Source: Sedimenticola sp.
GTDB lineage: Bacteria > Pseudomonadota > Gammaproteobacteria > Chromatiales > Chromatiaceae
DNA length: 50,802 nt
Direction of reading: 5' to 3'
Assembly (NCBI GenBank): GCA_026983675.1
Contig: JALSTP010000129.1
Span: 1 to 50,802 of the forward strand
Below the pieces are notes generated by a model. That model worked only from the letters and a program-made list of their open reading frames with translations. It ran no database searches and was not told the DNA's origin. Numbering within the stretch: the first letter of the stretch is position 1; every line of letters starts with the position of its first letter. The position numbers and the translations under genes were made by a program. This document shows, piece by piece, positions 11,770 through 49,329 of this stretch.

Positions 11770-12573
11770 CTACCAGCGCTGCCGGATCTCCACCACGATA
11801 CCCGCTTCGAGGGTCGTGCTCGCGGGTTCCACCACGGCCCCCACCACTTCACCATTGCGGGTCAATGGGACATCCTGACTTCTGTCAAACCGCCAATAGT
11901 CGATGACGGGACCGGCGTGCATACTGAGTGCGTCCCCAACCTCCCGCTGCCACACCAGAGACAAACGGAAGCCGACCCCTCCCCGCAACGACAGACGCAC
12001 TGGATCGTCGACGCCATTGAGGAAATTCACGTCGAGGGAGGTATCAAACGGCCTCCGTACGCACAGATCCACAACAAGGTCGTCCCGGTCGGAAAGGCGT
12101 CTCCCGGAACGAACGCCAAGCGTCGCATACGCCCACTCATAACGCTCCTGAAGACCGAAAATCGTCCCCACCGAATCGATCGCTCTGCGCCATTCCCGAA
12201 CACCCAAGCCGCCATAGAGATCAAGGTATGACGCCCTTCGGTCCAACTCGAAATGCCTGCCAAGGGAAATGGAGAACGACCGGATGCGTTCATGGGTCGT
12301 GGATTTCAGCTCTTCAGAAGACGACATCGGCGCCCTGTAATCGACAGCATCGTCCCGATAGCGAAACTCCGCGCCGCCAAACCAGCCCTCTGTCCCCATC
12401 GCATCGAGCTTCAGGCCGATGCCCGGCAACCCCCCCTCCTCCTCATCGAGGAGTCGGTTCGCCTCATCCCGTTCCTGATAGCGGAAAGCCGCCACCGAGA
12501 CACTGACGGCCCCTGCCCATTGCAAGGCGCCCGCTGTCATCGGGATCGCACAGAGCAGCAGAAAAAACGCCAC
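11770..12573 (-). CDS. Predicted outer-membrane beta-barrel protein
   Basis: Unrecognised protein with outer-membrane features. A GTG start at 12571-12573 gives MAFFLLLCAIPMTAGALQWAG, a good signal peptide; the mature part alternates polar and hydrophobic residues in short strands (YLDLYGGLGV, YATLGVRSG, VRLSLRGGVGFRLSLVWQ, LEAGIVVEIRQRW) and ends in Trp, as do substrates of the BAM complex. About 245 mature residues would fit 8-10 strands. An in-frame ATG at 12636 gives 288 residues, but both early ATGs lie inside a 32-bp palindrome that looks like the terminator of the upstream gene. Same strand as the lipoprotein gene 12718-13656. Function unknown. Confidence 0.7.
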   Translation of the reverse strand: MAFFLLLCAIPMTAGALQWAGAVSVSVAAFRYQERDEANRLLDEEEGGLPGIGLKLDAMGTEGWFGGAEFRYRDDAVDYRAPMSSSEELKSTTHERIRSFSISLGRHFELDRRASYLDLYGGLGVREWRRAIDSVGTIFGLQERYEWAYATLGVRSGRRLSDRDDLVVDLCVRRPFDTSLDVNFLNGVDDPVRLSLRGGVGFRLSLVWQREVGDALSMHAGPVIDYWRFDRSQDVPLTRNGEVVGAVVEPASTTLEAGIVVEIRQRW

Positions 12574-12608
12574 CCGACCACCCTGGCAAAACCGCGATAC
12601 CCGAATTT

Positions 12609-12640
12609 GAAAATGGGGATGACGCGTCATCCCCATTTTC
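12609..12640 (-). terminator. 32-bp perfect palindrome, likely terminator
   Basis: GAAAATGGGGATGACG at 12609-12624 is followed directly by its exact reverse complement to 12640. The hairpin has an A tract on one side and TTTTC on the other, so it can work as a bidirectional intrinsic terminator. It lies 80 nt beyond the lipoprotein stop and its sequence contains two in-frame ATGs for the barrel protein, which argues those are not the real starts. Confidence 0.7.
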
Positions 12641-12717: not shown

Positions 12718-13656
12718 CTACCAGTTTTCAGTCTGCGCGAACTCGAAGGTTCCGTCACCGTCCTCGTCGACCTCCAGCATGTACTGGGTATTGCTCAGGA
12801 CCGTTAGCTTGCACTGGCTGTTGTGGTCACCCTTGAGCAACAACTGACCCTCTGTCGGCCAAATGTCCGCGCCATAGATTTTCAGTGGCGCCAGCGTGCT
12901 GACATCCACGTAACCGAACGTGGGATGGAAGTAGCGCCCGGTCAGCGTCTCCTCGACATACTGGAAATTACCGGTTATCAGCACCTCGAAGTCCTCCAAC
13001 TTCTCCACTTCGCCCGTAGTATTGTTCTTGGACACCAGATTCATCAGGGTATCGACGGTGTTTGCACCCATTGGCGTCGCATCGACGGTACCGGTCAGCG
13101 TAAAGCTCTCCCCATCCGCGGTGACATTCAGGTCATTGAAGGCCAAGTGCATTGACGTGGCGGTATCAAGGTTGATGTCGTAGAGCCCCGAAAAACCCAA
13201 CGAACCGTCGAAAACCGATCCTTCCTCTTTACACTGCTCGAAGGTGAGCGAACCGTCGAATGCCTCTGTAACGTCATTGATGGAGATATGAATAGTGTAG
13301 GAACCCCCGCCTCCACACTGAAGCGTTTCATCGGCCTGCGCGCCAGGCAGGGAAGACGGCTTCGACAGATCCACCCTCATCACCGACTTCGTCAGGACAT
13401 CCGCCACGATGAGATTCAAAGGGCGGCCTCCTGCGCTGCTACTGACGACACCCACCGCCGAAGCCGGGTTTCTGTTCGACGCCCCCACCGAACCCTCGGA
13501 CAACGGCTTGGCGCTCTGACTGTCGACAACCGCAGGCGTTGTCTTTCCCGAATAACCAGAGGAAGCCGAGGCACTGTCACCCCCACCTCCGCCGGCGCCG
13601 CAACCACCGACTGCCACTGACACAAATGCAACCGCACACCAAACTCGTGTTTTCAT
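12718..13656 (-). CDS. Predicted lipoprotein of unknown function
   Basis: I do not recognise a family. The 312-residue product starts MKTRVWCAVAFVSVAVGGC, a lipoprotein signal with lipobox VGGC, then a low-complexity Gly/Ser linker, so it should be lipid-anchored on the periplasmic side of a membrane. The mature part is rich in Asp, Thr and beta-prone segments (LTFEQC, YDINLDTATSMHLAFNDLNV, FTLTGTVDATPMG) and ends with VDEDGDGTFEFAQTENW, which includes a DxDGDG loop resembling calcium-binding loops. Three mature cysteines beyond the lipidated one are visible (LQCGG, EQCKE, SQCKL). AAGGAGAAGGGAG precedes the ATG. It lies upstream of the barrel-protein gene on the same strand, separated by a terminator. 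Confidence 0.75.
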   Translation of the reverse strand: MKTRVWCAVAFVSVAVGGCGAGGGGGDSASASSGYSGKTTPAVVDSQSAKPLSEGSVGASNRNPASAVGVVSSSAGGRPLNLIVADVLTKSVMRVDLSKPSSLPGAQADETLQCGGGGSYTIHISINDVTEAFDGSLTFEQCKEEGSVFDGSLGFSGLYDINLDTATSMHLAFNDLNVTADGESFTLTGTVDATPMGANTVDTLMNLVSKNNTTGEVEKLEDFEVLITGNFQYVEETLTGRYFHPTFGYVDVSTLAPLKIYGADIWPTEGQLLLKGDHNSQCKLTVLSNTQYMLEVDEDGDGTFEFAQTENW

Positions 13657-13957
13657 TCTCCCTTCTCCTTGTTTCAATTCCACACTCAAACATAAAAACA
13701 GATCATGACTCAGGCCAGCATCTCATCGACCCGAACGCAACCCCACCGCTGCTCCCTGAGCATCAACCGCAACCCAAGCGAATACCAAGCTACCCCTGAT
13801 CCCGTACAGCAGCGATTTTTGATGCTGGAAAATCACCGACCTCGGAAGCGCGAATTATAACGATACAAATATTACACGTAAAAACAGTTCGTTACGGAAG
13901 TTTATCACCAGCGCTATTGCGTAGCGTGGAAGATTGCTGTAAATTCCACCCTCTTCC
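13657..13957. other. Intergenic region with a candidate tRNA-Val promoter
   Basis: About 300 bases without a gene between the divergent lipoprotein gene and tRNA-Val. TTGCGT (13917-13922) and TAAATT (13940-13945), spaced by 17 nt, would start transcription a few bases before the tRNA. The left half presumably holds the lipoprotein promoter, which I cannot place with confidence. Confidence 0.4.
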
Positions 13958-14253: not shown

Positions 14254-15651
14254 CTACTGCTCGACACCCAGCGCCTCCAGCGTCCGGATTGTCAATCCAC
14301 CCCGCGGCAGATCGTTGGCGCGCTGAAAGTTCTCGACTGCAGCCAGCGTGGCCGCGCCGAGGATGCCATCCACGGAACCCGGATCGTAACCTGCCTTTTG
14401 CAGGGCCTCCTGAACGGCGGCGATGATCTCCTTGGTCATATTGGTCTCACACAACACCTGGCGCCATTCGAGACGCTTGCCATGCACCTTCACCCGGGTC
14501 TCGACGGTCTTGTATTCCGCCGGGATCTTGGTGCGCACCACGTCGGCCTTGGTGATCACCTTCCCGATCTTGACCGTCTCGTAGACCGCCGGGATTTGTT
14601 TCTTCTCGAATCTGGCCGGCGTCTTGACGACGTGCTTGGTCAGCTCAACATATTCAGGTGGGATCTCCTTCAGGCAGATCTGCTGGCCCGTCCATTTGCC
14701 CACGGGCTTCTTTGGATCGTGGACCCCCTGCCAGACAAAGGTATCGTCGCTGACCATTTTCTTCAGGGTGACGGACTGGAACTCTGCCGGCACGTCAGTA
14801 CGCTTTTCCTGGGGCGGCGTCACCTGCTTGCGGATCTTGATCGTCTTGTACTCCGCGGGAACCTCCACTTTTTTGAAACTGGCGGGGGTCTTGACCACCT
14901 GTTTTTCGATGGTCTTGTACTTAGCGGGAATAGTGACCAGGCACAGGAGTTCGCCCGTCAGGTTGTCGATCTTCTCCACCAGTCCCCGACCTTTTTTCCA
15001 CACCGTCTGCTCGGGTTCCACGAGGACCTTCTCGGTCACCGTTTCGTAGACCGCCGGTTGTTCGACAATCTTCACCGTGGCCTCCTTGACCATCACCTTC
15101 TTCTCTTCCCATGCGTATTCCGCTGGAACGACCTCCAGCATTTCGGATGCCTCGGTAACCAATACATCCTTTTTCTCCTCGGCGTACTTGGCAGGAACGT
15201 AGTATTCCCGGAAACACATGCCTGGGATCGCCTCGTCGGTGTTCGCGCCTCCCGCCTTGGCCGCCGCCACCAACCCCGGACTGACAGGGATCCCGCGCTT
15301 GCTCAGGCTGTTGACCCAGATGGTTCGGCCGGGACGGGTCTCCACACGCTCCACCATATCCTTGAATTCCGCCTGTACCGGGATGAGTTCCGTGGTTGGT
15401 TCCTGTACCAGTATCCTCTCCTCCGTCCACGCGTATTCGGCCGGTTTGGGTGTAATCTTTTCCGCCGCTTCCCGTACCAACACCTTGTCCGTCCGCTTCT
15501 CATACTTGGGGGGAATGATCACCTTGGCGTAGCACTGCCCTGGTTTTGCCTCCGGGAGAATGTTCGTCGCATCCGTCACCTCCTCCGCAATCGCCTGACC
15601 GCCCACCGATATACCCATCGAAAACGCAATCACTGTAACCTTCATATTCAT
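14254..15651 (-). CDS. Secreted peptidoglycan-binding protein with a 4 x 3 repeat region
   Basis: A 466-residue exported protein. The start MNMKVTVIAFSMGISVGGQAIA (ATG 15649-15651, GAGGGG 10 nt upstream) is a signal peptide. The body is built of about twelve units of roughly 20-25 residues, each opening P-[AP]-x-[YF] (PPKY, PAEY, QAEF, PAKY, PAVY and so on) and continuing with K-V-[LV]-V-x-x-[AP]. They group in four modules of three; each module is preceded by a Cys (GQC, GMC, LLC, QIC) and closes with an aromatic W segment (IWVN, VWKKG, VWQG, EWRQV). The C-terminal about 60 residues form a PG_binding_1 domain (VQEALQKAGYDPGSVDGILGAATLAAVENFQ). It should bind the cell wall in the periplasm. 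The function of the repeats is unknown. Divergent from the 387-residue gene. Confidence 0.85.
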   Translation of the reverse strand: MNMKVTVIAFSMGISVGGQAIAEEVTDATNILPEAKPGQCYAKVIIPPKYEKRTDKVLVREAAEKITPKPAEYAWTEERILVQEPTTELIPVQAEFKDMVERVETRPGRTIWVNSLSKRGIPVSPGLVAAAKAGGANTDEAIPGMCFREYYVPAKYAEEKKDVLVTEASEMLEVVPAEYAWEEKKVMVKEATVKIVEQPAVYETVTEKVLVEPEQTVWKKGRGLVEKIDNLTGELLCLVTIPAKYKTIEKQVVKTPASFKKVEVPAEYKTIKIRKQVTPPQEKRTDVPAEFQSVTLKKMVSDDTFVWQGVHDPKKPVGKWTGQQICLKEIPPEYVELTKHVVKTPARFEKKQIPAVYETVKIGKVITKADVVRTKIPAEYKTVETRVKVHGKRLEWRQVLCETNMTKEIIAAVQEALQKAGYDPGSVDGILGAATLAAVENFQRANDLPRGGLTIRTLEALGVEQ

Positions 15652-15841
15652 CGTACGGGTTCCCCTCGCGCCTGTTTTGCGCCACAACCTGAGACAATCA
15701 AGAGGGTTTCGATGGTAATACAAAGCCCACACGAATGGGAATAAAGTTCCTTCTTCGTCCAGTACACAGGTTGTCGCTCCCGGGGTTTGCTGCCAACATA
15801 GTGCCCTTCCTCATTTCTGTAGTTACCCAAGAGGCAGTGGT

Positions 15842-17005
15842 ATGCATATCGGCCCAAGAGAGATCACTACGCCGTTCAGACCCATCCCGCTGGAGGTGCC
15901 GGAGGGCATGGCACCCAACGAGTTCTTCAACAGTACGGAAAATCTCAACGATCTGGTGCACAACAACGGCCTGCTGGTCAATCCGGAAAACCTGTTGCTG
16001 TACCGCAAGGCACTGGGACACAGCAATGTCTTCGATACCTCGATCATCTACAACACCTCCAACTGCATTCTGAATCCTCTCGGCCGGCCGGTGCGCCGCA
16101 CCCAGGTCCCCGACAATGTGAAACATGTCTGGAACCGCATGAACCAGATCCTCATCGACTATATGGTCGAGGCATTTCCCGACCCGGACGACCACCTTAT
16201 CCTGGCGGGCGAGGCGAGCCTGGACGCCACCTGGCCACTCACCTCGCCGGGGGTCCCGAGCATCCGCATGCTGCACAATCACTTCATCGTCTTCGACATG
16301 GAAGCGTTGCGTAACGCAAAGGCCGCCGATCCCGCCAATCCGAATCTGACCGACGGTGGCCAGCACAGCCTGTTTCAGGCCTACATGCATCGTGTCTACA
16401 GGCAATTCTTCGAATCCCTGGAGTTCGACCTGCTACGCCCCGCTGACGACGATACCGCGCGGATCGGGCTGACGGGTTATCCCCAGGGACTGCCCAGTTG
16501 GGAGATCCCGAAAGGGGTGGAGACTCTGAAGGAGATCGGTTTCTGGCGGGAATACGACAAGATCCTGAAGGGCTTTATCGATTTCTACCGCACCTTTTTC
16601 AGCCAGGTCTCGACGCGCAACGCCCCGCCGCCCAAGGATGCTTATTTCCCGGAACATATCGAACAACATCTACTGTTCAACAATGACTTTCTGGCCACCG
16701 CCAAAAAGGTGCGTGACCGTTGCATTACCGACGCCAAATACGCCAATGCCATCCGTTGGCAACCGGCATTCAAACAACTGATCTACCGCAACGACGCCGG
16801 TAAGCTGATCGTCACCATCAGCCAGAATTCCATTGGCAATGCCATCACTGAACTGCTTGGCGTGGTGGTCAATCGCACGCCCGATGCCGAGGGCTACGAA
16901 AAACACGAGCCGCAACTCATCGAACGACTGCTGGAGGTCAGACGGCGCTTGATCGAAGCGGACCTGGGCGACGGGATCGAAACACGGTACTGGGGCAAAA
17001 CATAG
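15842..17005 (+). CDS. Uncharacterised 387-residue protein
   Basis: I do not recognise this protein. It is soluble, with no signal peptide or membrane segment, so cytoplasmic. Features that look conserved-like: YNTSNCILNPLGRPVRR, SPGVPSIRMLHNHFIVFD with an HNH triplet, a Tyr/Phe-rich central part (YMHRVYRQFFESLEFD, FIDFYRTFF), and a C-terminal segment ITISQNSIGNAITELLGVVVNR followed by an amphipathic helix. The start at 15842 has AGAGG 7 nt upstream. It is divergent from the repeat-rich peptidoglycan-binding gene (190 bp apart) and ends 22 bp from the convergent ppc stop. Codon use resembles its neighbours, so recent transfer is not suggested. Confidence 0.75.
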   Translation: MHIGPREITTPFRPIPLEVPEGMAPNEFFNSTENLNDLVHNNGLLVNPENLLLYRKALGHSNVFDTSIIYNTSNCILNPLGRPVRRTQVPDNVKHVWNRMNQILIDYMVEAFPDPDDHLILAGEASLDATWPLTSPGVPSIRMLHNHFIVFDMEALRNAKAADPANPNLTDGGQHSLFQAYMHRVYRQFFESLEFDLLRPADDDTARIGLTGYPQGLPSWEIPKGVETLKEIGFWREYDKILKGFIDFYRTFFSQVSTRNAPPPKDAYFPEHIEQHLLFNNDFLATAKKVRDRCITDAKYANAIRWQPAFKQLIYRNDAGKLIVTISQNSIGNAITELLGVVVNRTPDAEGYEKHEPQLIERLLEVRRRLIEADLGDGIETRYWGKT

Positions 17006-25001: not shown

Positions 25002-25087
25002 TTATTAACCCGGCAACACTATATATCGTATTCAGCCGTGGCCTGCCTGCAGCCCTGAATGCGATATATAGTGTTGCCGGGTTAATA
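25002..25087. mobile_element. 86-bp hairpin copy of the dispersed MITE-like element
   Basis: Two arms, each beginning TTATTAACCCGGCAACACT on its own strand, face each other around a short GC-rich middle; the arms pair over about 34 bp with one mismatch. Both carry the variant ACACT where other copies have ACAAT, so the two arms changed together. TA flanks both ends. It lies between the convergent RND and hypF stops and provides the hypF stop codon (25082-25084). It probably works as a bidirectional terminator. Confidence 0.85.
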
Positions 25088-27385
25088 TCGGCAACAGCCC
25101 ACCGCCACCTGCCCCAGCGACAGTCCGCCGTCGTTGGCAGGCGCCTGTCGCGGCGCGAGAACACGGCGTCCCCCCTGCCGCAGTCGCCCACCGACCCCTT
25201 CCAGTAACAGCCTGTTCTGGAACACTCCACCGCCCAGCGCGACGGTATCCAGGCCATGTTCCCGGCACAGCGCGTCGGCGGTGGCCGCGATGGCCGTGGC
25301 GACGCCGTTGTGAACGCGTGCACCGATGAGGCCGGGGTCTGCCCCTTGCTCCAGATCGTTCAGCAGGGCCTGCCACAGAGGCGCGACGTCGAGTTGGCGA
25401 GCCCGCAACTGCACGGGGTATCCCGCGGCCGCGGGATCGTCCACATGGGGCGCCGACAGCGCCTCCAGTTGGATGGCCGCCTCGCCTTCGTAGGTGGCCC
25501 GCTCGCGGCAGACACCCAATGCCGCCGCCACGGCATCGAACAGGCGGCCGGCGGACGAGGCCAGCGGGCTGTTAACGCCTCTCTCCATCATACGGATCAG
25601 AGTGTCCAATGGCCTGTCTTCAAGGAAGCGGATCAGCTCCAGCCCACCGTAGCGCGCCCTCACCGTATCCCACTCCAGCACAGTGGCGAGATGAGCGAAG
25701 GTGTTACGCCAGGGCTCATGAATTGCCTTGGCGCCGCCTGGCATGGGTACCGGCTGGAAGTGGGCCAACCGCCGGTACCTCCGGTAATCGGCCAGCAGAA
25801 ACTCGCCACCCCACAGGGTCCCGTCCCCGCCGTACCCCAGCCCGTCCAGCGCCACCCCGAGCACCGGCGCATCCTCGGGGCGAATGCCGGCCTCGGCCAT
25901 GCAGGCGGCGATATGGGCGTGGTGATGTTGCGCCTCGACGAGCGGAATCCCCAGTTCGTCGGCCAGCGCCCGGCCCACCTGGGTGGAGAGATAACCGGGA
26001 TGCCGGTCCACTACGATGCGTTCGGGATCGAAATCGAACAGCCGCCGGTAGTGCTGGATCATGCGCCGATACTCGCGCAGGGTCGCCGCCTCCTCCAGAT
26101 CGCCGAGGTGCTGCGACAGGATGGCCTGGCCGTCACGCAGGAGGCAGAAGGTGCTCTTCAGTTCGCCGCCCATCGCCAGTATCCGCGGCGCGTTCCGAAA
26201 TGCCGCCGGCAACGGGATCGGCCGCGGCGCATGACCGCGCGCGCGCCGAAGCATGCGTGGCGCGCCATCCATAATCCGCACCACCGAATCGTCCAGGCGG
26301 GTGGCGATCTCCCGGTCATGCAGCAAAAAGTGGTCGGCGACACCGTGCAGGCGTGCTCTCGCCTCATCGTTGCCGATACACTGCGGCGCGTCGCTGAGAT
26401 TACCCGAGGTGAGCACGATGGGGCGCTGCATGTGCTGCATGAGCACATGGTGCAATGGGGTGTATGGCAGCATGAAGCCCAGGGTATCCTGGCCGGGCGC
26501 CACCCCTTCCGCCAGCGGTATTCCCGCCTTTGGCAGAATCACGATTGGGGCGGCGCTGGAACTCAGCACCGCCCGCGCTCCGTCGTCCAGCCGGGCATGC
26601 CGTTGGATCTGATGGAGATCGCGGGCCATGAGCGCAAACGCCTTTCGAGAGCGTTGCTTGCGTATCCGCAACCGCCGCACTCCCTCCGCATCGGCAGCGT
26701 CGCACGCCAGGTGAATGCCGCCAATGCCCTTGATCGCCACGATCCGGCCCTCACAGAGCAAGCGGGCGGCGGCGGCGATGGCGTCCTCCGTCGGCGCCAC
26801 CGTTCCCGCCGCATCCTCCAGCCATACCCGCGGACCACATGCGGAACAGGCGTTTGGCTGGGCGTGGAACCGGCGATCGGCGGGGTCATCGTATTCCGAT
26901 CGACAAGCCGGACACATGGGAAAGGCCGCCATGGACGTGTTTGCGCGGTCGTAGGGGATGCGTCGCACGATGGAGAGGCGCGGACCGCAGTGGGTGCAGT
27001 TGGTGAAGGGGTAGCGGTAACGCCGGTCCGCCGGGTCGAGCACCTCGCGCAGACAGGCTTTACAGGTGGCGGCGTCGGGCGCCACGCCGGTGTGCGTCTC
27101 GCCGTCGTGGCTGACCACGATCTGGAAGTCATCCGGCGGGGCGCCGTGCACCAACGGCGTGCGTTCCACCGCCTCGATCACCGCCAATGGCGGCGCGTCC
27201 TGCTTGAGTGCGTGGACGAACCGATCACACACCGCTGGCTCACCCCACACTTCGACGACCACGCCACCGGCATCGTTCCACACCCGCCCCGTCAGCCCTT
27301 GGGCCTTCGCCAGCCGCCAGGCGGTGGGGCGGAAACCGACGCCCTGGACGATGCCCCGCACCCGGATCCGCTCACCCCTCAGCAT
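25082..27385 (-). CDS. hypF: Carbamoyltransferase HypF
   Basis: Makes the thiocarbamate on HypE from carbamoyl phosphate and ATP, the source of the cyanide ligands of [NiFe] hydrogenase. The 767 residues contain, in order, an acylphosphatase domain (RGIVQGVGFRPTAWRLA), two zinc fingers (CKACLREV and CTHCGP; CPACRSEY and CSACGP), a YrdC-like domain (KGIGGIHLACDA), and a Kae1-like domain with HHHAHIAACMAE and a final DGGLSLGQVAVG. Its ATG overlaps the hypE stop by 7 nt. The stop TAA is formed by the repeat end at 25082-25087, so the last one or two residues may be acquired. Last gene of the hypABCDEF operon. Confidence 0.96.
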   Translation of the reverse strand: MLRGERIRVRGIVQGVGFRPTAWRLAKAQGLTGRVWNDAGGVVVEVWGEPAVCDRFVHALKQDAPPLAVIEAVERTPLVHGAPPDDFQIVVSHDGETHTGVAPDAATCKACLREVLDPADRRYRYPFTNCTHCGPRLSIVRRIPYDRANTSMAAFPMCPACRSEYDDPADRRFHAQPNACSACGPRVWLEDAAGTVAPTEDAIAAAARLLCEGRIVAIKGIGGIHLACDAADAEGVRRLRIRKQRSRKAFALMARDLHQIQRHARLDDGARAVLSSSAAPIVILPKAGIPLAEGVAPGQDTLGFMLPYTPLHHVLMQHMQRPIVLTSGNLSDAPQCIGNDEARARLHGVADHFLLHDREIATRLDDSVVRIMDGAPRMLRRARGHAPRPIPLPAAFRNAPRILAMGGELKSTFCLLRDGQAILSQHLGDLEEAATLREYRRMIQHYRRLFDFDPERIVVDRHPGYLSTQVGRALADELGIPLVEAQHHHAHIAACMAEAGIRPEDAPVLGVALDGLGYGGDGTLWGGEFLLADYRRYRRLAHFQPVPMPGGAKAIHEPWRNTFAHLATVLEWDTVRARYGGLELIRFLEDRPLDTLIRMMERGVNSPLASSAGRLFDAVAAALGVCRERATYEGEAAIQLEALSAPHVDDPAAAGYPVQLRARQLDVAPLWQALLNDLEQGADPGLIGARVHNGVATAIAATADALCREHGLDTVALGGGVFQNRLLLEGVGGRLRQGGRRVLAPRQAPANDGGLSLGQVAVGCCRY

Positions 27386-28428
27386 ATGCGCGGCAGTGGC
27401 TCCCCCGCCAGCCAGTCCACCACCCGGTTGCCGCCGAAGCGGGTCTCCATCTGCACCAATCCGTCCGCGTCCGCCACCACCTGCCCAATGTGGGCCGCCC
27501 GGCGTCCCAGCGGATGGCCTTGCATCGTCTTCAGCAAGGCGGGGGCATCCTCCGCTGCGCAGATACAGACCAATTTGCCCTCGTTGGCCACGTAGAGAGG
27601 GTCCAGCCCCAGCAGTTCACAGGCGCCGGACACCTCTTCGTCCACCGGGATGGCGCGCTCTTGCAGGTGCATGCCCACGCCGGACTGCCGCGCCAGTTCG
27701 TTGAGTGTGGTGGCAAGACCGCCGCGGGTGGGGTCGCGCAGGCAGTGGATACCGGGCGCCGCCGAGACCATCTCCGCCACCAGTCCGTGCAGCGCCGCCG
27801 AATCCGATTCTATGGTGGTATCGAACTCCAGGTGCTCGCGGCTCGACATGACGGCCACGCCATGATTGCCGATGCTGCCGCTGAGCAGAATGGCGTCACC
27901 GGGCCGCGCACGGTCTCCCGAAATGGCCACGCCCTCGGGCACCATGCCGATGCCGGTGGTGGTGATGAATACCCCGTCACCCTTGCCCCGTTCCACCACC
28001 TTGGTGTCGCCGGTAATCACCGGCACACCAGCCTCGCGGGCGGCCTCACCCATGCTCGCCACGATGCGATCCAGATCGGCGAGCGGAAACCCCTCCTCCA
28101 GGATGAAACCGGCGCTGAGGTAGAGCGGGTGGGCGCCCGCCATGGCCACGTCGTTGAGCGTGCCATGCACCGCCAGCGCGCCGATGTCGCCGCCGGGGAA
28201 AAAGAGCGGCGAGATGACATGGCTGTCGGTGCTCATCACCATGCGTCCAGCCTCCACGTCGAAGGCCGCCTGGTCGTTGCCCTGACGCAAGAGGTCGTTG
28301 TCGAAGTGGCGCACAAACAGCGCATCGATGAGCTGCGCCATGGCGCGCCCGCCGCTGCCGTGGATCATCTCCACAGCGCCCCTCCGCACGTCCAGACGTT
28401 GGGAAAACCGTCTCGGCGTGCCGCTCAT
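27379..28428 (-). CDS. hypE: Hydrogenase maturation factor HypE
   Basis: Dehydrates the HypF-made C-terminal thiocarbamate to thiocyanate and passes cyanide to HypCD. It is a 349-residue PurM/AIR-synthase-like ATPase with VMSTDSHVISPLFFPGGDIGALAVHGTLNDVAMAGA near the N-terminus and GDTKVVERGKGDG. It ends PRIC; the terminal Cys is the carrier residue. The start (28426-28428) overlaps the hypD stop as ATGA. Confidence 0.97.
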   Translation of the reverse strand: MSGTPRRFSQRLDVRRGAVEMIHGSGGRAMAQLIDALFVRHFDNDLLRQGNDQAAFDVEAGRMVMSTDSHVISPLFFPGGDIGALAVHGTLNDVAMAGAHPLYLSAGFILEEGFPLADLDRIVASMGEAAREAGVPVITGDTKVVERGKGDGVFITTTGIGMVPEGVAISGDRARPGDAILLSGSIGNHGVAVMSSREHLEFDTTIESDSAALHGLVAEMVSAAPGIHCLRDPTRGGLATTLNELARQSGVGMHLQERAIPVDEEVSGACELLGLDPLYVANEGKLVCICAAEDAPALLKTMQGHPLGRRAAHIGQVVADADGLVQMETRFGGNRVVDWLAGEPLPRIC

Positions 28429-29552
28429 GCCGATGCAGCCTCCCCCGCCTGGCGGAAACGTCCGTAGCTCCAGTAGGCGGCGCAGGCCCCCTCCGACGAG
28501 ACCATGCAGGCGCCCATAGGGCGCTCGGGGGTACACACGCTGCCAAAGAGCTTGCAGTCGGGAGGCCGCTTCACGCCCCGCAAGATACTCGGACACTCGC
28601 ATCCCTTCACGTCCGGCGCTTCGATGGCGGGCACATCGAAACGCCGCTCCGCGTCGAAGTCGGCCCAGGCGGACCGGATGCGCAAGGCGCTCGCCGGCAC
28701 CCGGCCCAGCCCACGCCATTCGAAGCTGTCGCGCAGTTCCATCACCTCCGCCACCAATGCTTGCGCCTTACGGTTGCCGTCGCGGGTCACCGCGCGGGTG
28801 TATTCATTCTCCACTTCGGCGCGGCCCGCGTTGAGCTGGCGGATCAGCATCAATGCCGACTGCATCACATCCAACGGCTCGAAGCCGGCGATCACCACCG
28901 GTTTGCCATATGCCTTCACAAACACCTCGTAGGGCCGGCTGCCGATCACCGTACTCACGTGGGACGGCCCGAGGAAACCATCGATGGCGATGTCCCCCCG
29001 CGTATCGAGGATGCGATGCATGGCGGCGGGGGTGAGTACATGGTTGCAGAAGACGCTGAAGTTTCTGAGTCCCTCCGCTTGTGCCTGGCGGATGACCACG
29101 GCCGTGGGCGGGGTGGTGGTCTCGAAGCCGATGGCAAAAAACACCACCTCCCGGCCGGGGTTCGCGCGCGCGATTTTCAGGGCATCCTGGCTGGAGTAGA
29201 CCATGCGCACATCGCCCCCTTCGGCCTTCACCCTGAGCAGGTTCCTGCGGCCGCTGGCGGGTACCCGCAGCATGTCGCCGTAGCTGCAGAGGATGACCCC
29301 CTCCCGCTCCACCAACCGGATGGCGTTGTCGATGCGGCCGATGGGCAACACGCAGACCGGGCAACCGGGACCATGCACGAAGCGGACGTTCTCCGGCATC
29401 AGCCCCTGGACCCCATAGCGAAAGATGGCATGAGTATGACCACCGCAGAATTCCATGAGATGGTACTGACGGTTTGGCGCCGCCTCGCGGACGATGGCCT
29501 TGGCAAGCGTCTGCGCCAGATCCCTGCGGCGGAATTCGTCGATGTATTTCAT
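28425..29552 (-). CDS. hypD: Hydrogenase maturation factor HypD
   Basis: Fe-S scaffold protein that with HypC assembles the Fe(CN)2CO unit. 375 residues beginning MKYIDEFRRRDLAQTLA. Conserved motifs include MEFCGGHTHAIFRYG, VHGPGCPVCVLP, the FAIGFETTTPPTA region, and a C-terminal Cys cluster (GCECPSILRG, PDCKLFGSVCTPERPMGACMVS, EGACAAYW) that binds a [4Fe-4S] cluster. The start overlaps the hypC stop as ATGA and its own stop overlaps hypE. Confidence 0.97.
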   Translation of the reverse strand: MKYIDEFRRRDLAQTLAKAIVREAAPNRQYHLMEFCGGHTHAIFRYGVQGLMPENVRFVHGPGCPVCVLPIGRIDNAIRLVEREGVILCSYGDMLRVPASGRRNLLRVKAEGGDVRMVYSSQDALKIARANPGREVVFFAIGFETTTPPTAVVIRQAQAEGLRNFSVFCNHVLTPAAMHRILDTRGDIAIDGFLGPSHVSTVIGSRPYEVFVKAYGKPVVIAGFEPLDVMQSALMLIRQLNAGRAEVENEYTRAVTRDGNRKAQALVAEVMELRDSFEWRGLGRVPASALRIRSAWADFDAERRFDVPAIEAPDVKGCECPSILRGVKRPPDCKLFGSVCTPERPMGACMVSSEGACAAYWSYGRFRQAGEAASA

Positions 29553-29773
29553 GCGGACAGGCCCGCCTCGGCGAAGAGCGCCAGGGTGCGCTCCGCCTCC
29601 TCGGCGCTGATTCGATTCAGGGCATAGCCCACGTGAACGAGCACGTAGTCGCCCACCGCCACCCCCTCCACCAGCGCCAGAGAGATCTCTTTCTTCACCC
29701 CGCCGAGCGAAACAGTGGCCATGTCGACCGCCGTGTCGATGGCAATGACCTCGGCGGGCAAGGCCAGGCACAT
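29549..29773 (-). CDS. hypC: Hydrogenase assembly chaperone HypC/HybG family
   Basis: A 74-residue chaperone starting MCLALPAEVIAID; Cys2 is the conserved residue that binds iron and the large-subunit precursor. The central DYVLVHVGYALNRI is the family signature. Start at 29771-29773 lies 4 nt from the hypB stop, and the stop overlaps hypD. The reading frame extends 53 codons upstream into hypB but that part is a shadow. Confidence 0.96.
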   Translation of the reverse strand: MCLALPAEVIAIDTAVDMATVSLGGVKKEISLALVEGVAVGDYVLVHVGYALNRISAEEAERTLALFAEAGLSA

Positions 29774-29777
29774 GGGA

Positions 29778-30593
29778 TCAGACCCCCAACGCGGCGAGCT
29801 GGCGCGTCGCCTCGATCCAGCGGTACCAGGCGTCCATCCCTTCGCCGGTGGTGGCGGAGATCTGCAACACCCGAATGCGCGGATTGACGCGCCGGGCGTA
29901 GTCGATGCAGCGCGCCACATCGAACTCCACATAGGGCAACAGGTCGATCTTGTTCAGCAGCATCAGGTCGGCGGCGTGGAACATATCGGGGTACTTGATC
30001 GGCTTGTCCTCGCCCTCGGTCACAGACAGGACCGCCACCTTGTGCGCCTCACCCAGATCGAAGGCGGCGGGGCAGACCAGATTGCCCACATTCTCGATGA
30101 ACAGTACACTCTCCTTTTCCGGCTTCAGGGTCTCCAGGGCGTGTCCCACCATGTGCGCGTCCAGATGACACCCCTTGCCGGTATTGATCTGCACCGCCCG
30201 CACACCGGTCTCGCGAATACGCCGGGCATCATTGCTGGTCTGCTGGTCACCCTCGATCACCGCCAGCGCCATCTCCGCCTGGAGATCGCCAAGGGTGCGT
30301 ATGAGCAGCGCTGTCTTGCCCGAACCGGGGCTGGAGACCAGATTCAACGCCAGGATGCCGCGCTCGCCGAACCAGCGCCGGTTGGCTGCCGCGTATTCGT
30401 TGTTCTTACCGAGGATGTCCTCCTCGATCTGCACCCGGCGCGACCGGCTGAGTCCGGGGGCGTGGGCATGGGCCGGTCCTGGCCCATCGTGGCGGTGATC
30501 ATGTTCATGGTGGGGATGCGCGCCGTGATCACGCGAATGGGCATCTCCCTCGACCGTCGTTTCACCTTCGCCACAACCGCACACGGTACACAT
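29778..30593 (-). CDS. hypB: Hydrogenase nickel incorporation GTPase HypB
   Basis: GTPase that delivers nickel with HypA. The 271-residue product opens MCTVCGCGE, the N-terminal CxxCGC high-affinity nickel site, then carries about ten His between residues 19 and 44 ([16 protein letters not shown]), a storage-type stretch. The G domain has P-loop SSPGSGKT near residue 87, [11 protein letters not shown] (metal-binding Cys-His) and [10 protein letters not shown] (NKxD). Its ATG overlaps the hypA stop by one base. Confidence 0.97.
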
Positions 30594-30934
30594 CACTCCA
30601 CCTCCAATTCTTTGACTCTCATTTCAGCGCCGCCGGTCACCCGAAGCGGGTAGCCGCCGCACTCGGGACAGGCATCGTAGCGCTCATCGATGTTCACCGT
30701 CTTTTCGCACGTCATGCACCAAGCCTCGCCGGTCACTTCGATGATCTCGAGCCGCGCCCGGTCCGCCAGGGTACCGCGGCACACCACCTCGAAACTGAAA
30801 CGCATGGCATCGGGCTCCACCCCAGACAGCCGACCGATCTCCAGCCAAACGGTCTTTACCTTCCGGAAGCCGTGGCTGACCGCCTTTTCCTCGAGAATCT
30901 GCAACACGCCTTCGCAGATCGATATCTCATGCAC
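30593..30934 (-). CDS. hypA: Hydrogenase nickel incorporation protein HypA
   Basis: A 113-residue nickel metallochaperone. GTG start at 30932-30934, with GGGGGAG about 6 nt upstream, gives [14 protein letters not shown]; His2 is the nickel ligand. The zinc site is Cys73, Cys76, Cys89, Cys92 (CMTC and CPEC). First gene of the operon. Upstream, 30935-31322 is about 390 bases with no gene; it contains a GGGTGGC/GCCACCC hairpin near 31026-31049 and one repeat end, but I cannot place the operon promoter. Confidence 0.96.
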
Positions 30935-31245
30935 GCGCTGCTCCCCCTCTTCTAGCCCGCACGGGGATCGAATGCACGCACCACCAATTGCGCCCGCCTT
31001 TCCGACTTCCCCGCACCGCCAGCCGGGGTGGCAAAAGAACGGGCCACCCGGTCCCTTTACAGACCGATGCGGTGAACGGGCAATCCACACAGCGTATCGG
31101 CCATGCCGATGTCGAAATACGAATGAGGCGCCGCGGCAGTCCGTGTCACTTCTCCATTCTGTAACCAACTGGCGAACTGGGCAACCTCTGCCCGCGCCGT
31201 ATTCGGCCTTTACCGCCATCGGCAACGGCGTATCGGCGCCTGGTG

Positions 31246-31264
31246 TTATTAACCCGGCAACAAT
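31246..31264. repeat. Solo end of the dispersed TTATTAACCCGG element
   Basis: Nineteen bases match the outer terminal repeat, flanked by TA. Similarity stops at the AT-rich part of the arm. It lies between the divergent hypA and MerR genes, just upstream of the MerR promoter region. Confidence 0.65.
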
Positions 31265-31291
31265 CACACCCGACATTTTATGACACTTTAT

Positions 31292-31319
31292 TTGTAACAC
31301 CTATTGTGATATTTATATC
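31292..31319 (+). promoter_or_regulatory. Candidate promoter of the MerR / VIT-VWA pair
   Basis: TTGTAA (31292-31297) and TATATC (31314-31319) are spaced by 16 nt in an AT-rich stretch that stands out from the GC-rich surroundings. Initiation would fall close to the ATG at 31323, and no ribosome site is seen before that ATG, so the first gene could be leaderless. A second reading (TATGAC near 31279) would give a short leader. Confidence 0.35.
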
Positions 31320-35628: not shown

Positions 35629-37065
35629 CTATTTCACTGCCGCGGCGCAGAGGGCCAGCAGGCCTGCGGGGAACACCCCCAACAGCAACATCGCGAGGCC
35701 ATTGATGCTGAGCATCCATTGGGTGTCGACGCCGGCGGTAATGGGGGCCTCATCAGTGGGCTTGTCGAAATACATGAGCTTGACGATGCGCAGATAGTAA
35801 AAGGCGCCGATGAGGGAGAAGATGACGCCGACGACAGCGAGCCAGACGAGGCCGACATGAACCACGGCCTGGAGCACCACCAACTTGGCGAAGAAGCCCA
35901 CCAGTGGCGGCACGCCGGCCATGGAGAACATGAGCAACAGCATCATGGCCGCAAACCAGGGATTGCGTTCGTTCAGTCCCTTGAAATCGTCCAGATTCTC
36001 GGCCTCGAATCCCCGGCGGCTCAGAAGAATGAGCATGCCAAACCCCCCCACGGCCATGAGCGCGTAGACGAGTGTGTAGAACATAGCCGCTGTATAACCT
36101 TCCTCCGTACCCGCCAGAATCCCGAGCAAGATGAACCCCACATGCGAAATGGTGGAATAGGCGAGCATGCGCTTGATATTGCTTTGCGCGATGGCGATGA
36201 GGTTGCCGAGACCCATGGAGAGGATCGAGAGAATGATGAGCATTCCCTGCCATGCACCGTGCAATTGGCCGAGCCCGTCCACCAACATGCGCATGGCAAT
36301 GGCAAAGGCGGCGATCTTGGGCACGCTGCCAATGTAGAGAGTCACCGCCGTCGGCGCGCCGTGATAGACGTCTGGCACCCACATGTGGAAGGGGACCGCG
36401 CCGAACTTGAAGGCCAGACCGATGACCACGAACACCAGGCCGAAGACCAGCACAGTGTTGTCCATCCCCTGCTGTTGCAGGGCCTGGGCGACGGCGCTGA
36501 ACTGGATGGAGCCGGTGGCGCCATAGACCATGGAGATACCGTAGAGCAGCATGCCCGAGGCCAGTGCCCCCAGCACGAAGTATTTCATGGCCGCTTCCGC
36601 GCCCTTGGGGGCATCCCGGTCGAAGGCCACCAAGGCATAGAGCGAGAGCGCCAGCAGCTCGAGACCCAGATAGACACTGAGAAAGCCGCCCGCCGACACC
36701 ATGACCATCATCCCCAACAGGGCGAACAGGCCCAGGGTAAAGTATTCACCGTGGTACAAATCCCGCATCTGGAGGTATCCGCGGGCATAGAGGAAGGTGA
36801 TAAAGGTGGTCAGGTAGAGGAAGACCTTGAGCAGGTCGCTGAGCGGATCGCGCACGAAACTGCTGTCGAAGACCACTTGCCTGTCCGAGCCGCCCAGCCA
36901 CAGGGTCAGCACCGCGGCTGCCACCAGGGTCGCCTGGCTCATGAGGTAGGTGACGTCGCGCTGTTCCTTGTTCAGGAACAGATCCACCACCAGGATGAGG
37001 CAGGCCATGCCCAGGACGAAGAGTTCCGGCAGAACGGGGATCAGATTGGCTGTGTCGAATTGCAT
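35629..37065 (-). CDS. nuoN: NADH-quinone oxidoreductase subunit N
   Basis: Antiporter-like membrane subunit of complex I, one of the three proton-pumping modules. 478 residues with about 14 hydrophobic segments. The conserved charged helix is in [21 protein letters not shown], and the [19 protein letters not shown] loop is typical. Last gene of the nuo operon, 27 bp after nuoM; the ribosome site is weak. The complete repeat element follows the stop. Confidence 0.96.
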
Positions 37066-37092
37066 GCTAGTTTACCGTTTATCCTGTTCCCG

Positions 37093-38607
37093 TCAGATCT
37101 TGGAGACCGCGAGGTGCTTGAGCAGGTGGTCCACCGAGGCGCTCATCACATCCACCAGCGGCGCCGGCCACAAGCCAAGGACGAGCACGGCAATGGCGAG
37201 CGATGCGAGGACGAAGAACTCCCTCTTACTGATGTCCTGCAAATTGGCCACATTGTCATTGGCCACCGCGCCGAAGATCACCCGCTTGACCATCCACAGC
37301 GTATAGGCGGCGCCCAGGATCAAGGTGGTGGCGGCGAGGAAGGCAAACCAGAAGTCGGCGCGGAAGCTGGCCAGGATCACCATGAACTCGCCGACGAAGC
37401 CGGAGGTCCCCGGCAGACCTGCATTGGCCATGGCGAAGAAGACCATGAAGGCGCCAAAGATCGGCATGGTGTTGATCACCCCGCCGTAGTCGGCGATCTC
37501 GCGGCTGTGCATGCGGTCGTAGAGCACACCGACGCAGAGAAACATGGCCGCAGAGATAAAGCCGTGAGAGACCATTTGCACCATGCCGCCCTCGACGCCA
37601 AGCGCCGCGCCGCTGCTCACGTCGGAACGGGCGAAGATAATGAAGACGATGAAGAAACCCAGGGTGACGAAGCCCATATGGGCAATGGAGGAGTAGGCGA
37701 TCAGTTTCTTCATGTCGCGCTGTACCAGGGCCACGAAGCCGATATAGACCACCGCCACCAGCGACATCGTGATGATCAGCCAGTCGAGGTGGCTGCTGGC
37801 GTCGGGGGTGATGGGCAGACTGAAGCGCAGGAAGCCGTAACCGCCGATCTTGAGCATGATCGCCGCCAGGATCACCGACCCCCCGGTGGGCGCCTCCACA
37901 TGGGCATCGGGCAGCCAGGTATGTACCGGCCACATGGGCACCTTGACCGCAAACGCAGTGAGAAAAGCGAGGAAGATGAGGATCTGCTCGCTCAGACTCA
38001 ATTTGAGATCGTGGAAGGCGAGGATGTCGAAACTGCCCGCCTTGTTGTACATATAGATCAAAGCGACCAGCATCAACACCGAACCGAAGAACGTATAGAG
38101 AAAGAACTTGATGGTGGCGTACACGCGGTTTGGTCCGCCCCATATACCAATGATGAGAAACATGGGGATCAGCATCGCCTCCCAGAAGACATAGAAGAGC
38201 ATGCCGTCGAGGGCGGAGAAGACACCGACCATGACCCCTTCCATGATCAGGAAGGCCGCCATGTACTGTGAAGGCCGGTACTGGATCACCTCCCAGCCCG
38301 CAATGATCACGTAGATGGTGACGAAAGTGGTGAGGATTATCAATGGCATGGAGAAACCGTCCACGCCGAGGTAATACTCGATGTTGAACAGCGGTATCCA
38401 GGGGGTCCGCTCCACGAACTGCATCTGTGCCGTGGTGGTGTCGAAACCGCTCCACAGGGGCAGGCTCACCAGAAACGTCAGCACGGCGAAGACGAGCGCC
38501 GTCCAGCGGGTGAAGTTCGGCACCTTGTCGCCACTGAGAAGCACCATGATCCCCCCGATGATGGGGAGCCAGGTGACGACGGTGAGTATTGGCCAGTCCG
38601 CGTACAT
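37093..38607 (-). CDS. nuoM: NADH-quinone oxidoreductase subunit M
   Basis: Second antiporter-like subunit, 504 residues. Motifs: VKVPMWPVHTWLPDAHVEAPTGGSVILA, RDMKKLIAYSSIAHMGFVTLG with the pumping lysines, and FYVFWEAMLIPMFLIIGIWGG with the essential Glu. Start at MYADWPILTVVTWLP (38605-38607), 20 bp after nuoL; the frame runs 65 codons further into nuoL without family sequence. Confidence 0.96.
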   Translation of the reverse strand: MYADWPILTVVTWLPIIGGIMVLLSGDKVPNFTRWTALVFAVLTFLVSLPLWSGFDTTTAQMQFVERTPWIPLFNIEYYLGVDGFSMPLIILTTFVTIYVIIAGWEVIQYRPSQYMAAFLIMEGVMVGVFSALDGMLFYVFWEAMLIPMFLIIGIWGGPNRVYATIKFFLYTFFGSVLMLVALIYMYNKAGSFDILAFHDLKLSLSEQILIFLAFLTAFAVKVPMWPVHTWLPDAHVEAPTGGSVILAAIMLKIGGYGFLRFSLPITPDASSHLDWLIITMSLVAVVYIGFVALVQRDMKKLIAYSSIAHMGFVTLGFFIVFIIFARSDVSSGAALGVEGGMVQMVSHGFISAAMFLCVGVLYDRMHSREIADYGGVINTMPIFGAFMVFFAMANAGLPGTSGFVGEFMVILASFRADFWFAFLAATTLILGAAYTLWMVKRVIFGAVANDNVANLQDISKREFFVLASLAIAVLVLGLWPAPLVDVMSASVDHLLKHLAVSKI

Positions 38608-38627
38608 GAAGACGTCTACCTTCTTGG

Positions 38628-40616
38628 TCAGAACACCACGAACCAGGTCAGGAGCAACAGCAGACCCAGGATCATGGCGAACGCATAGTGATACAGATAG
38701 CCGGTCTGGATATGGCGGATGACGCCTGCCATCCAGCCCACTGTCCTTGCCGAACCATTGACGATCAGCCCGTCGATGAGCAATCGGTCGCCGGCCCGCC
38801 ACAGCAACTGGCCCACGGCGCGGCTGCCACCGCCGAACAGGAACTGGTAGGCCTCATCGAACCAGTACTTGTGGTCGAGCAGGGAATAGAGCCATTCCGC
38901 CTTGGCCTTCGCCTTGTCGGCAATGGACGGATCGCGCAGATAAACGTACCAGGCGGTGCCCAACCCGGCCATGGCCAGCCAAAACGGCAGGCCGAACAGA
39001 CCGTGCAGCATGAAGCTGAAGGATCCGTGGAACTCTTCACCCATCTCGTGCAGGACATTGTGGGCGTGACTCACGAAGAGCGCATTGCCGAACCAATCGC
39101 CGAACAGCATTGCCTTGATGGTGAGATATCCCAGCCCGATGGAGGGAATGGCAAGCAGCACCAGGGGCAAAGTCACCACCCAAGGGGATTCCTTGACGTG
39201 CTCAGCGGCATGCGCGTCGCGCGGTCCCTCGCCATGGAAGACGAGGAAGAACATGCGGAAAGAATAGAGCGCAGTGACAAAGACACCCAACAGCACCAGC
39301 AGATAGGCATAGCCGGAACCGGCGACCTCCGAGGCCGCCACCGCCTCGATGATGGCATCCTTGGAAAAGAATCCGGAGAAACCGGGGAAGCCGATCAACG
39401 CCAGCGACCCGATCAAGGCGGTGATCCAGGTGATGGGCATGCGCTTCCACAGGCCGCCCATGTTGCGGATATCCTGGTCGTGGTGCATGCCGATGATCAC
39501 TGAACCGGCAGCCAGGAACAACAGCGCTTTGAAGAAGGCATGGGTCATCAGGTGGAAGATGCCGGCGGCATAGGCCGAGGCGCCCAGCCCCACCATCATG
39601 TAACCGAGCTGGGAGAGCGTGGAATAGGCGATGACGCGCTTGATGTCGTTCTGCACAACGCCGATCAGGCCGGTGAAGAAGGCCGTAGTGGCGCCAATCA
39701 CCAAAATCACCGTAAGCGCCGTCTCGGAGAGTTCATAGAGCGGCGACATACGCGCCACCATGAAGACGCCGGCGGTGACCATGGTGGCAGCGTGGATCAG
39801 GGCCGAGATGGGCGTCGGACCTTCCATCGAGTCGGGCAACCACACGTGCAGCGGTACCTGAGCCGACTTGCCCATGGCGCCGATGAAGAGCAGGATGCCG
39901 ATGAGGCTCATCAGCGAGACGCCGCCAAACACCTGCACCTGGGTGTCGGCAAATTGCGGAGCCTGCCTGAATACCTCGGCATAGTCCAGGCTGTTGAAGT
40001 ACATGGCCACGGCAGCAATGCCGAGGATGAAACCGAAGTCGCCCACCCGGTTGACCAGGAATGCCTTGAGGTTGGCGAAGATGGCCGTCGGCCGTACCGC
40101 CCAGAAGCCGATCAGCAGATAGGAGACCAATCCCACCGCCTCCCAGCCGAAGAAGAGCTGCATGAAGTTGTTGGACATCACCAGCATCAGCATGGAGAAG
40201 GTGAACAGCGAGATGTAGGAGAAGAAGCGCTGATAGCTGTTGCGCCCCATCAGGCTGTCGTTGGGCCAGTTGTGCTCGTCATCGGCCATATAGCCGATGG
40301 TGTAGATATGCACACAGAAGGAGACAAAGGTGACCACGGACATCATCACGGCCGTGAGCGGATCGATCAGAAAGCCCACCTCCATGCGCAGTCCATCGCT
40401 CACCAGCCAGGTGTAGACCGGGCCGTTGAACACCCCAACGGTGCCCTGAATGAAGCCATTCAGTACATAGAACGCGAGCAGCGCCGAGATGCCCACCCCG
40501 GCGCTCGCCACCCAGTGCGCACCGGCCCTGCCGATACGTCCCCCGAAGAAGCCGGCGATGATCGCCCCCAGGAGCGGGAACAGCACGATTGCCAGATAGA
40601 TCTTTTCCATGCCCAT
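38628..40616 (-). CDS. nuoL: NADH-quinone oxidoreductase subunit L
   Basis: Distal antiporter-like subunit with the long lateral helix; 662 residues. Motifs: FFGWEAVGLVSYLLIGFW, KSAQVPLHVWLPDSMEGPTPISALIHAATMVTAGVFM, NDIKRVIAYSTLSQLGYMMVGLG and a C-terminal membrane helix after a long amphipathic stretch. Start at ATG 40614-40616 with AAGGGG 5 nt upstream; a GTG at 40622 and an ATG at 40610 are alternatives. Two bases separate it from the nuoK stop. Confidence 0.96.
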   Translation of the reverse strand: MGMEKIYLAIVLFPLLGAIIAGFFGGRIGRAGAHWVASAGVGISALLAFYVLNGFIQGTVGVFNGPVYTWLVSDGLRMEVGFLIDPLTAVMMSVVTFVSFCVHIYTIGYMADDEHNWPNDSLMGRNSYQRFFSYISLFTFSMLMLVMSNNFMQLFFGWEAVGLVSYLLIGFWAVRPTAIFANLKAFLVNRVGDFGFILGIAAVAMYFNSLDYAEVFRQAPQFADTQVQVFGGVSLMSLIGILLFIGAMGKSAQVPLHVWLPDSMEGPTPISALIHAATMVTAGVFMVARMSPLYELSETALTVILVIGATTAFFTGLIGVVQNDIKRVIAYSTLSQLGYMMVGLGASAYAAGIFHLMTHAFFKALLFLAAGSVIIGMHHDQDIRNMGGLWKRMPITWITALIGSLALIGFPGFSGFFSKDAIIEAVAASEVAGSGYAYLLVLLGVFVTALYSFRMFFLVFHGEGPRDAHAAEHVKESPWVVTLPLVLLAIPSIGLGYLTIKAMLFGDWFGNALFVSHAHNVLHEMGEEFHGSFSFMLHGLFGLPFWLAMAGLGTAWYVYLRDPSIADKAKAKAEWLYSLLDHKYWFDEAYQFLFGGGSRAVGQLLWRAGDRLLIDGLIVNGSARTVGWMAGVIRHIQTGYLYHYAFAMILGLLLLLTWFVVF

Positions 40617-40618
40617 GC

Positions 40619-40924
40619 TCACCCCTTCAAGGTGTCGAGGTCGTCCACGTTGATACTGTGCCGGGCGCGGAACAGCACCACCAGGATAGCCAGGCCGATG
40701 GCGGCCTCGGCCGCGGCCACGGTGAGGATGAAGAAGACGAATACCTGCCCCACCGTATCATTGAGAAAATGGGAGAAGGCGATGAAATTCATGTTCACCG
40801 CAAGCAGCATCAACTCCACACACATCAACAGGACAATGACGTTCTTGCGATTGAGGAAGATCCCCGCCACGCTGACGGCGAACAGGATCGCCCCCAGGAT
40901 CAGATAGTCGGATAGCGCGATCAT
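40619..40924 (-). CDS. nuoK: NADH-quinone oxidoreductase subunit K
   Basis: Small membrane subunit of 101 residues with three helices, homologous to MrpC. The conserved Glu residues of the central membrane channel are visible in [13 protein letters not shown] and [13 protein letters not shown]. Its ATG overlaps the nuoJ stop as ATGA. Confidence 0.97.
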
Positions 40925-41535: not shown

Positions 41536-41578
41536 CGGCTCTTCCCGTCGGCAATCTGCGCCGACAGTCCTGTAGTCC

Positions 41579-42067: not shown

Positions 42068-42080
42068 GACATGCTCCGCC

Positions 42081-43136: not shown

Positions 43137-43142
43137 GGTCCC

Positions 43143-45512: not shown

Positions 45513-45543
45513 TGGCGTTGCTCTCTACCCTGCGCGTCCCGAA

Positions 45544-46836: not shown

Positions 46837-46842
46837 TGCGTG

Positions 46843-49320: not shown

Positions 49321-49329
49321 GCCTTTCCC

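Follow-up and report, generated by a model that had tools for sequence, protein, structure and literature searches.

A gene on the minus strand of a 50,802 nt stretch of DNA from Sedimenticola sp. (assembly GCA_026983675.1, contig JALSTP010000129.1; the window refers to this whole stretch) encodes a 465 amino acid (aa) protein with twelve repeat units of 23 residues, and we propose, with a probability of about 85%, that these units form a giant two-arm antiparallel beta hairpin, that is, one long two-stranded ribbon. Taken jointly, this ribbon structure and an anchoring of the protein to the cell wall are likely. In the proposed structure, arm A (units 1-6) would run out and turn at a loop of the form TGE..C237, and arm B (units 7-12) would return, with unit i of arm A pairing antiparallel with unit 7-i of arm B over the whole length. 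Each unit would consist of a 12-residue and a 7-residue strand. Strands of equal length would pair with each other, and the PA kink of one arm (unit positions 1-2) would lie opposite the [PE]A kink of the other (positions 15-16). The nested 4 x 3 pattern of the units would be a mirror, in which runs 1 and 4 make up the lower and runs 2 and 3 the upper ribbon, and two inserted nodes (residues 116-146 and 311-330) would face each other at mid-height. C237 would be free at the tip. The base would carry a peptidoglycan-binding domain, to which one clade of relatives would add a lipid anchor of the outer-membrane type on a helical-looking linker.

Periodicity of the repeat and the C-terminal domain

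The units start at residues 47, 70 and 93; 153, 176 and 199; 242, 265 and 288; and 331, 354 and 377, with a spacing of exactly 23 aa within each run. An earlier reading of this sequence, the original prediction, had described twelve units in four modules of three, and this grouping was borne out by autocorrelation over residues 41-400, which put lag 23 at z = 9.0 and lag 89 at z = 10.6; no lag in 500 shuffles exceeded 4.4, and the periodicity is therefore far above chance. A unit profile detected 12 units in the protein compared with a mean of 0.18 and a maximum of 2 in shuffles; the profile was derived from this same family and confirms the unit count only. For every unit, the length of 23 aa is kept without insertions or deletions in 79-81 of 81 homologues. 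The opening P[AP]x[YF] that had been assigned to all units is present in 11 of the 12, but unit 3 opens with QAEF, while the periodic cysteines (residues 40, 146, 237, 326 and 401) and the tryptophans that close each run (112, 218, 307 and 396) were found as described.

The C-terminal region scores 43.2 bits against PF01471 at residues 409-461 (E = 4.4e-11), above the curated cut-off of 23, and its predicted fold matches the wall-binding domains of SltB3 (Z 9.9) and SleB (Z 8.9). The proposal of an elongated beta repeat joined to a peptidoglycan-binding domain thus gained support, with binding itself predicted from the sequence.

Proposed pairing of the two halves

We prepared two gap-free alignments, one of 137 four-run proteins (276 columns) and one of 84 relatives with four units in each half (4|4; 184 columns), applied mean-field direct coupling analysis to each, and scored every diagonal (parallel) and antidiagonal (antiparallel) between the halves. 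The top line was antiparallel in both sets and matched unit i in the first half with unit N+1-i in the second, at positions p and q with p+q between 14 and 20. Its robust z peaked at 8.4 in the four-run and at 5.8 in the 4|4 set, in the same end-to-end register, and no line outside this band came near in either orientation or either set. Mutual information in a reduced alphabet gave the same register, and splitting each data set at random into halves returned it again; when the second halves were permuted 100 times, the band never exceeded 0.8. At almost every level of the ribbon, the signal comes from the 12-residue as well as the 7-residue segments. Homology among the repeats can give rise to parallel lines at multiples of 23, but not to an antidiagonal.

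The register is accompanied by compensating charges. At position 9 of unit 5 and position 11 of unit 8, the combinations E-K, K-E and E-R occur in 48, 26 and 24 sequences, respectively, and position 5 of unit 6 with position 13 of unit 7 is E-K in 50 and R-D in 21. Over all pairs, the charge covariance reaches its most negative values on lines 16-18 in either set. The 465-aa protein itself has the pairs E64-R373, E78-K364 and E203-K254, with K184-K275 as an exception to opposite-charge pairing. Within the halves, neither an inter-turn stacking line nor a local-hairpin line stood out. The four-run set has a line at an offset of exactly 69 and the 4|4 set one at exactly 23; we weighed these lines as contacts but dropped that reading, since the offsets next to them are flat, and they look like repeat homogenisation.

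Four short relatives provided a further view of the register. These proteins (L113, L115, L118 and L125), each first read as two units side by side, proved to be 1|1 hairpins that have a turn of their own and consist of a single unit pair and the wall-binding domain. When the register from the large proteins is applied to them, it centres the hairpin on D-G, D-G, N-G and D-G, and their two core cysteines face each other. D-G and N-G are classic tight beta-turns. Further genomes of the same family (f74) give similar partial matches, and the minimal 1|1 form may be common in this family.

Unit numbers in the two halves

The unit profile was run on all collected relatives, 262 of which are complete open reading frames (ORFs). 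The 12 units of the 465-aa protein divide 6|6 between the arms, in the arrangement 3+3|3+3 that is shared by 131 of these ORFs; 83 are 4|4, two are 6|6 with six contiguous units per half and no mid node, and 3|3 and 2|2 form smaller groups. The original prediction had proposed a search for the same unit in other numbers, and the result is a size series from 1|1 to 6|6 in which the halves hold equal numbers (1|1, 2|2, 3|3, 4|4, 6|6 and 3+3|3+3) with one clear exception, discussed below. Other unequal counts, such as [2,3,3,2] or [4,3], proved on inspection to reflect mostly degenerate units with unchanged cysteine spacing.

Cysteines, mid nodes and tip loop

Of the 81 first-round homologues, 79 have the full set of five core cysteines, and the other two are two-run proteins with three. 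C40 lies opposite C401 at the base (p+q = 19, within the band), and a disulfide between them, as read from the register, would likely lock the base. Both C146 and C326 belong to the mid node, and one is never seen without the other (131/131), which makes a bond between them plausible; since the register does not fix it, we regard this predicted mid-node disulfide as an even chance. At the tip, C237 is opposite K219 and has no partner on the register. The idea of disulfide cross-links therefore survives in part: probable disulfides stand, but the suggested bonds are intramolecular (C40-C401 and possibly C146-C326) and do not build a cross-linked fibre.

Few stretches of the protein are as conserved as the tip loop, GxG...D..TGE..CLV. 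Two observations support this placing of the cysteines: the tip cysteine is lost in the 4|4 relatives L100, L102, L103, L189 and L191, which keep the first and the last, and several alphaproteobacterial members without the last cysteine have, by inspection, two cysteines 4-5 residues apart at the base instead. The 6|6 members L175 and L178 contain a CxC pair, PA[QE]YCDC, in unit 2 of their second arm, with no obvious partner.

Structure prediction and library searches

AlphaFold2 predicted for the full protein 12- and 7-residue strands broken at the PA kinks, the same segments that the register pairs, with a predicted local distance difference test (pLDDT) score of about 80 in most units; the predicted template modelling (pTM) score was only 0.34, so that the structure prediction called for by the original prediction supplied strands but no confident overall arrangement. 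A single run predicted alone (A3, 112 rows) reached a pTM of 0.14 without secondary structure and was not used for fold search. With the full model, Foldseek/VIA returned the wall-binding domain as the sole confident match, and long-hairpin proteins and beta-sandwiches were too weak to use. The repeat region had no significant match in Pfam, NCBIfam or PDB sequences; in two relatives without the wall-binding domain, the repeat was likewise unmatched in Pfam and NCBIfam. The repeat and its mirror-like design are absent from all protein-family libraries searched, and the literature searches found no description of the 23-residue repeat. We do not claim a new fold outright, as the absence of a fold match is not proof and the search excluded libraries of predicted cellular structures.

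Alternative explanations

Each three-unit run might be a beta domain of its own, a meander or solenoid in which strands of 7 and 12 residues alternate, with the four lined up as a bead-like rod. The strand pattern by itself would be compatible with such modules in series, and the number of units per run varies, as it does in open-ended solenoids. However, no local-hairpin or inter-turn line stands out within the halves, the inter-half antiparallel line dominates both data sets, independent domains need no equal numbers in the two halves, and one run alone did not fold in prediction. We consider modules in series, including the beta-solenoid of the original prediction, very improbable; the halves pair antiparallel instead. 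Covariation is blind to whether contacts lie within or between molecules, and arm A of one molecule could lie on arm B of another in an extended, domain-swapped dimer twice as long. Against this speak the 1|1 relatives, whose tight D-G or N-G turn sits exactly at the predicted fold-back, and the linker between the arms, which is short in most members regardless of unit number; such a dimer appears quite improbable to us.

The working form might be an oligomeric beta tube or sheet of hairpins assembled side by side, and not a single arm. Lateral assembly is a serious alternative given that a two-stranded ribbon leaves its edges open, and long-hairpin tubes such as aerolysin-type pores and phage tails were among the weak Foldseek matches (none significant). 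No extra covariation line marks a second strand neighbour, though, and both faces are rich in K, E and T, unlike a membrane barrel, so that we rate this form as unlikely. A tether between outer membrane and wall of the Lpp/Pal type, with the repeats as a mere spacer, is suggested by the clade that combines an outer-membrane-type lipobox, a linker of 48-85 residues and the wall-binding domain. The 465-aa protein and 42 relatives in the tree lack a lipobox, however, the tip is among the most conserved parts, and the hairpin model places both ends of the ribbon at the base beside the wall-binding domain, which would make the ribbon a side arm and not a spacer; the tether is in our view unlikely.

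Several points weigh against the two-arm hairpin that we prefer. The effective sequence numbers are modest (102 for the four-run and 54 for the 4|4 set), and the full AlphaFold2 model has the low pTM given above. One paralogue (L107) has 10|6 units and is the sole clear breach of the equal-arm rule. For the large members, covariation alone would fit a domain-swapped dimer as well as an intramolecular hairpin; the tight turn of the 1|1 proteins speaks for the hairpin. The edges of a bare two-stranded ribbon are open, and an additional partner or self-assembly is likely; a partner at the tip is hypothetical. As to the 10|6 paralogue, its first arm consists of near-identical Lys/Arg-rich units, the extra ones being near-identical copies, and its record encodes a 4|4 relative as well.

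Gene layout and neighbourhood

The minus-strand ORF is a real gene: it is kept in dozens of genomes at 38-54% identity and occurs as one copy in its genome. A plus-strand ORF across the same bases (14398-15744) was taken as a mechanical shadow. The sequence features point to secretion of the protein to the periplasm and anchoring to the wall (Table 1).

Table 1 Features of the gene for the 465-aa protein, in positions of the window
Feature	Position	Strand	Basis and remarks
Coding sequence, 465-aa protein	14257..15651	minus	ATG at 15651, stop codon 14254-14256; homologues
Putative signal peptide, ~residues 1-22, plain type without lipobox	15586..15651	minus	Sequence AIA-EE, inferred cleavage site; compared with relatives
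Cys40, arm A base	15532..15534	minus	In 81/81 homologues; faces Cys401 in register, p+q = 19
Arm A lower half, units 1-3, residues 47-115	15307..15513	minus	Repeat and pairing analyses
Arm A mid node, residues 116-146, ending at Cys146 (15214-15216)	15214..15306	minus	Repeat and cysteine analyses
Arm A upper half, units 4-6, residues 153-221	14989..15195	minus	Repeat and pairing analyses
Tip loop, residues 222-241, TGE..CLV and lone Cys237 (14941-14943)	14929..14988	minus	Conservation; Cys237 partnerless on register
Arm B upper half, units 7-9, residues 242-310	14722..14928	minus	Repeat and pairing analyses
Arm B mid node, residues 311-330, with Cys326 (14674-14676)	14662..14721	minus	Repeat and cysteine analyses
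Arm B lower half, units 10-12, residues 331-399	14455..14661	minus	Repeat and pairing analyses
Cys401, arm B base	14449..14451	minus	In 81/81 homologues; faces Cys40
PG_binding_1 domain, residues 409-461	14269..14427	minus	PF01471, E = 4.4e-11; fold match to SltB3 and SleB

A divergent ORF of 387 aa (15842-17005, plus strand) adjoins the gene and has no match in Pfam or NCBIfam. Two genes off on the downstream side, an ORF of ~310 aa (12718-13689, minus strand) without significant Pfam or NCBIfam match contains a lipobox-like VGGCG and encodes a probable lipoprotein; an outer-membrane-barrel-like ORF (11770-12636) adjoins it. Outside the present finding, the regions 25082-31300 and 35629-50025 read as a hydrogenase maturation cluster (HypF, HypE, HypD, HypB and HypA-like ORFs) and a complex I (nuo) operon. 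Among relatives, no conserved gene neighbour was found beyond local synteny in related genomes.

Distribution and variants of the family

At least 429 candidate places in GTDB species genomes encode a relative; no relatives were found in the plasmids, phage and viral records searched. The 4 x 3 form occurs in Gammaproteobacteria (Thiogranum, Granulosicoccus, Shewanella, Neptuniibacter, Amphritea and others) and in several Campylobacterota assemblies. One record labelled 'Halobacteria archaeon' (L053) is nested in gammaproteobacterial clades, and such taxon labels were treated as binning errors. Of 369 genomes in a draw of Gammaproteobacteria, 48 gave a match with E below 1e-15, in at least one case to the wall-binding domain only. 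In the order of genome G931, the family is present in 47 of 48 genomes, with up to 8 members per genome among the matches listed; both the 4 x 3 and the 4|4 form are present there (L211-L324). Two places in another genome, G860:C1:869517-870740 and C1:1088582-1089805 (L164), have identical scores on opposite strands and a reported internal TGA in each, perhaps the result of a recent duplication.

In a tree of 79 four-run proteins, 36 form a group that has a lipobox of the outer-membrane type, its +2 residue being A, S, T or G, and a linker of 48-85 residues ahead of the first core cysteine. The other 43, among them the 465-aa protein, which has no lipobox with an outer-membrane sorting residue, have a plain signal peptide, and the branch support is 100/99. 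Automatic lipobox calls for L043, L044, L049, L060 and L062 were rejected, the linker being too short. Several alphaproteobacterial 2|2 and 3|3 members lack the wall-binding domain.

Comparison with known proteins

SltB3, CtpB and SleB share the PF01471 wall-binding domain with the C-terminal 55 residues of the 465-aa protein, in sequence and predicted fold; they are enzymes, whereas the remainder of the 465-aa protein is a non-enzymatic-looking repeat without a sequence relative in the PDB. The single-layer beta sheet of OspA is charged and coreless, with hairpin units of ~23 residues that are local in sequence. The 465-aa protein would share the charged, coreless beta structure and the unit length, but its strands would pair between distant parts of the chain, and no sequence relation to OspA was found among solved structures. 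Long beta hairpins are known from pore-forming toxins; we know of none that is built from paired repeats.

The closest known counterparts are wall-attached single-layer beta rods such as SasG and the length-variable Periscope Proteins. The staphylococcal SasG/Aap G5-E proteins are elongated, single-layer beta structures whose E domains need neighbours to fold, and in SasG the domains stand in series as triple-stranded sheets with collagen-like segments (PMC4458895). The 465-aa protein would resemble SasG as an elongated wall-attached beta rod and differs from it in the proposed pairing of the halves of one chain over the full length, the conserved cysteines and the Gram-negative setting; G5 had no Pfam match in the protein up to E = 10. 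As in the Periscope Proteins (PMC8201768), members differ in repeat number, on which the reach of a wall-held rod would depend; there the domains are in series, whereas here the repeat would be a pair of short units from opposite arms. In the comparison with arrays of the Periscope type, we saw a length series between species, and single runs failed to fold alone in the model.

Proposed function and implications

We tentatively suggest that the protein acts as a stiff arm in the periplasm, anchored to the wall, with a conserved tip loop that docks a hypothetical partner and a reach set by the number of unit pairs. Fully extended, its ~138 residue pairs would measure roughly 45 nm at 3.3 angstrom per residue. 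Since the typical periplasm is narrower than this, the ribbon would have to coil, lie along the wall, or both. It is possible, at somewhat less than even odds, that the family represents a new kind of repeat protein, a zipper in which the structural repeat is a 23-residue unit pair from opposite halves of the chain and which lengthens only by one unit per arm at a time, in a series of 1 to 6 pairs with mirror-image disulfide nodes and a free cysteine at the conserved tip, serving as a wall-anchored arm across several bacterial classes. Overall, the original prediction's interpretation of the repeat is partly supported.

If the proposed pairing is true, defined tests of the charge pairs, the disulfides and the tip loop follow, and a natural, length-graded long beta hairpin might be of use in protein design. 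It would also raise a testable evolutionary question, namely how two separate arms gain units in step. The Gammaproteobacteria, some Campylobacterota and the Alphaproteobacteria would then possess an uncatalogued wall-anchored family whose repeats work pairwise from opposite chain ends, and in the order of G931, where nearly every genome carries it, often in several listed matches, it likely matters to the cells.
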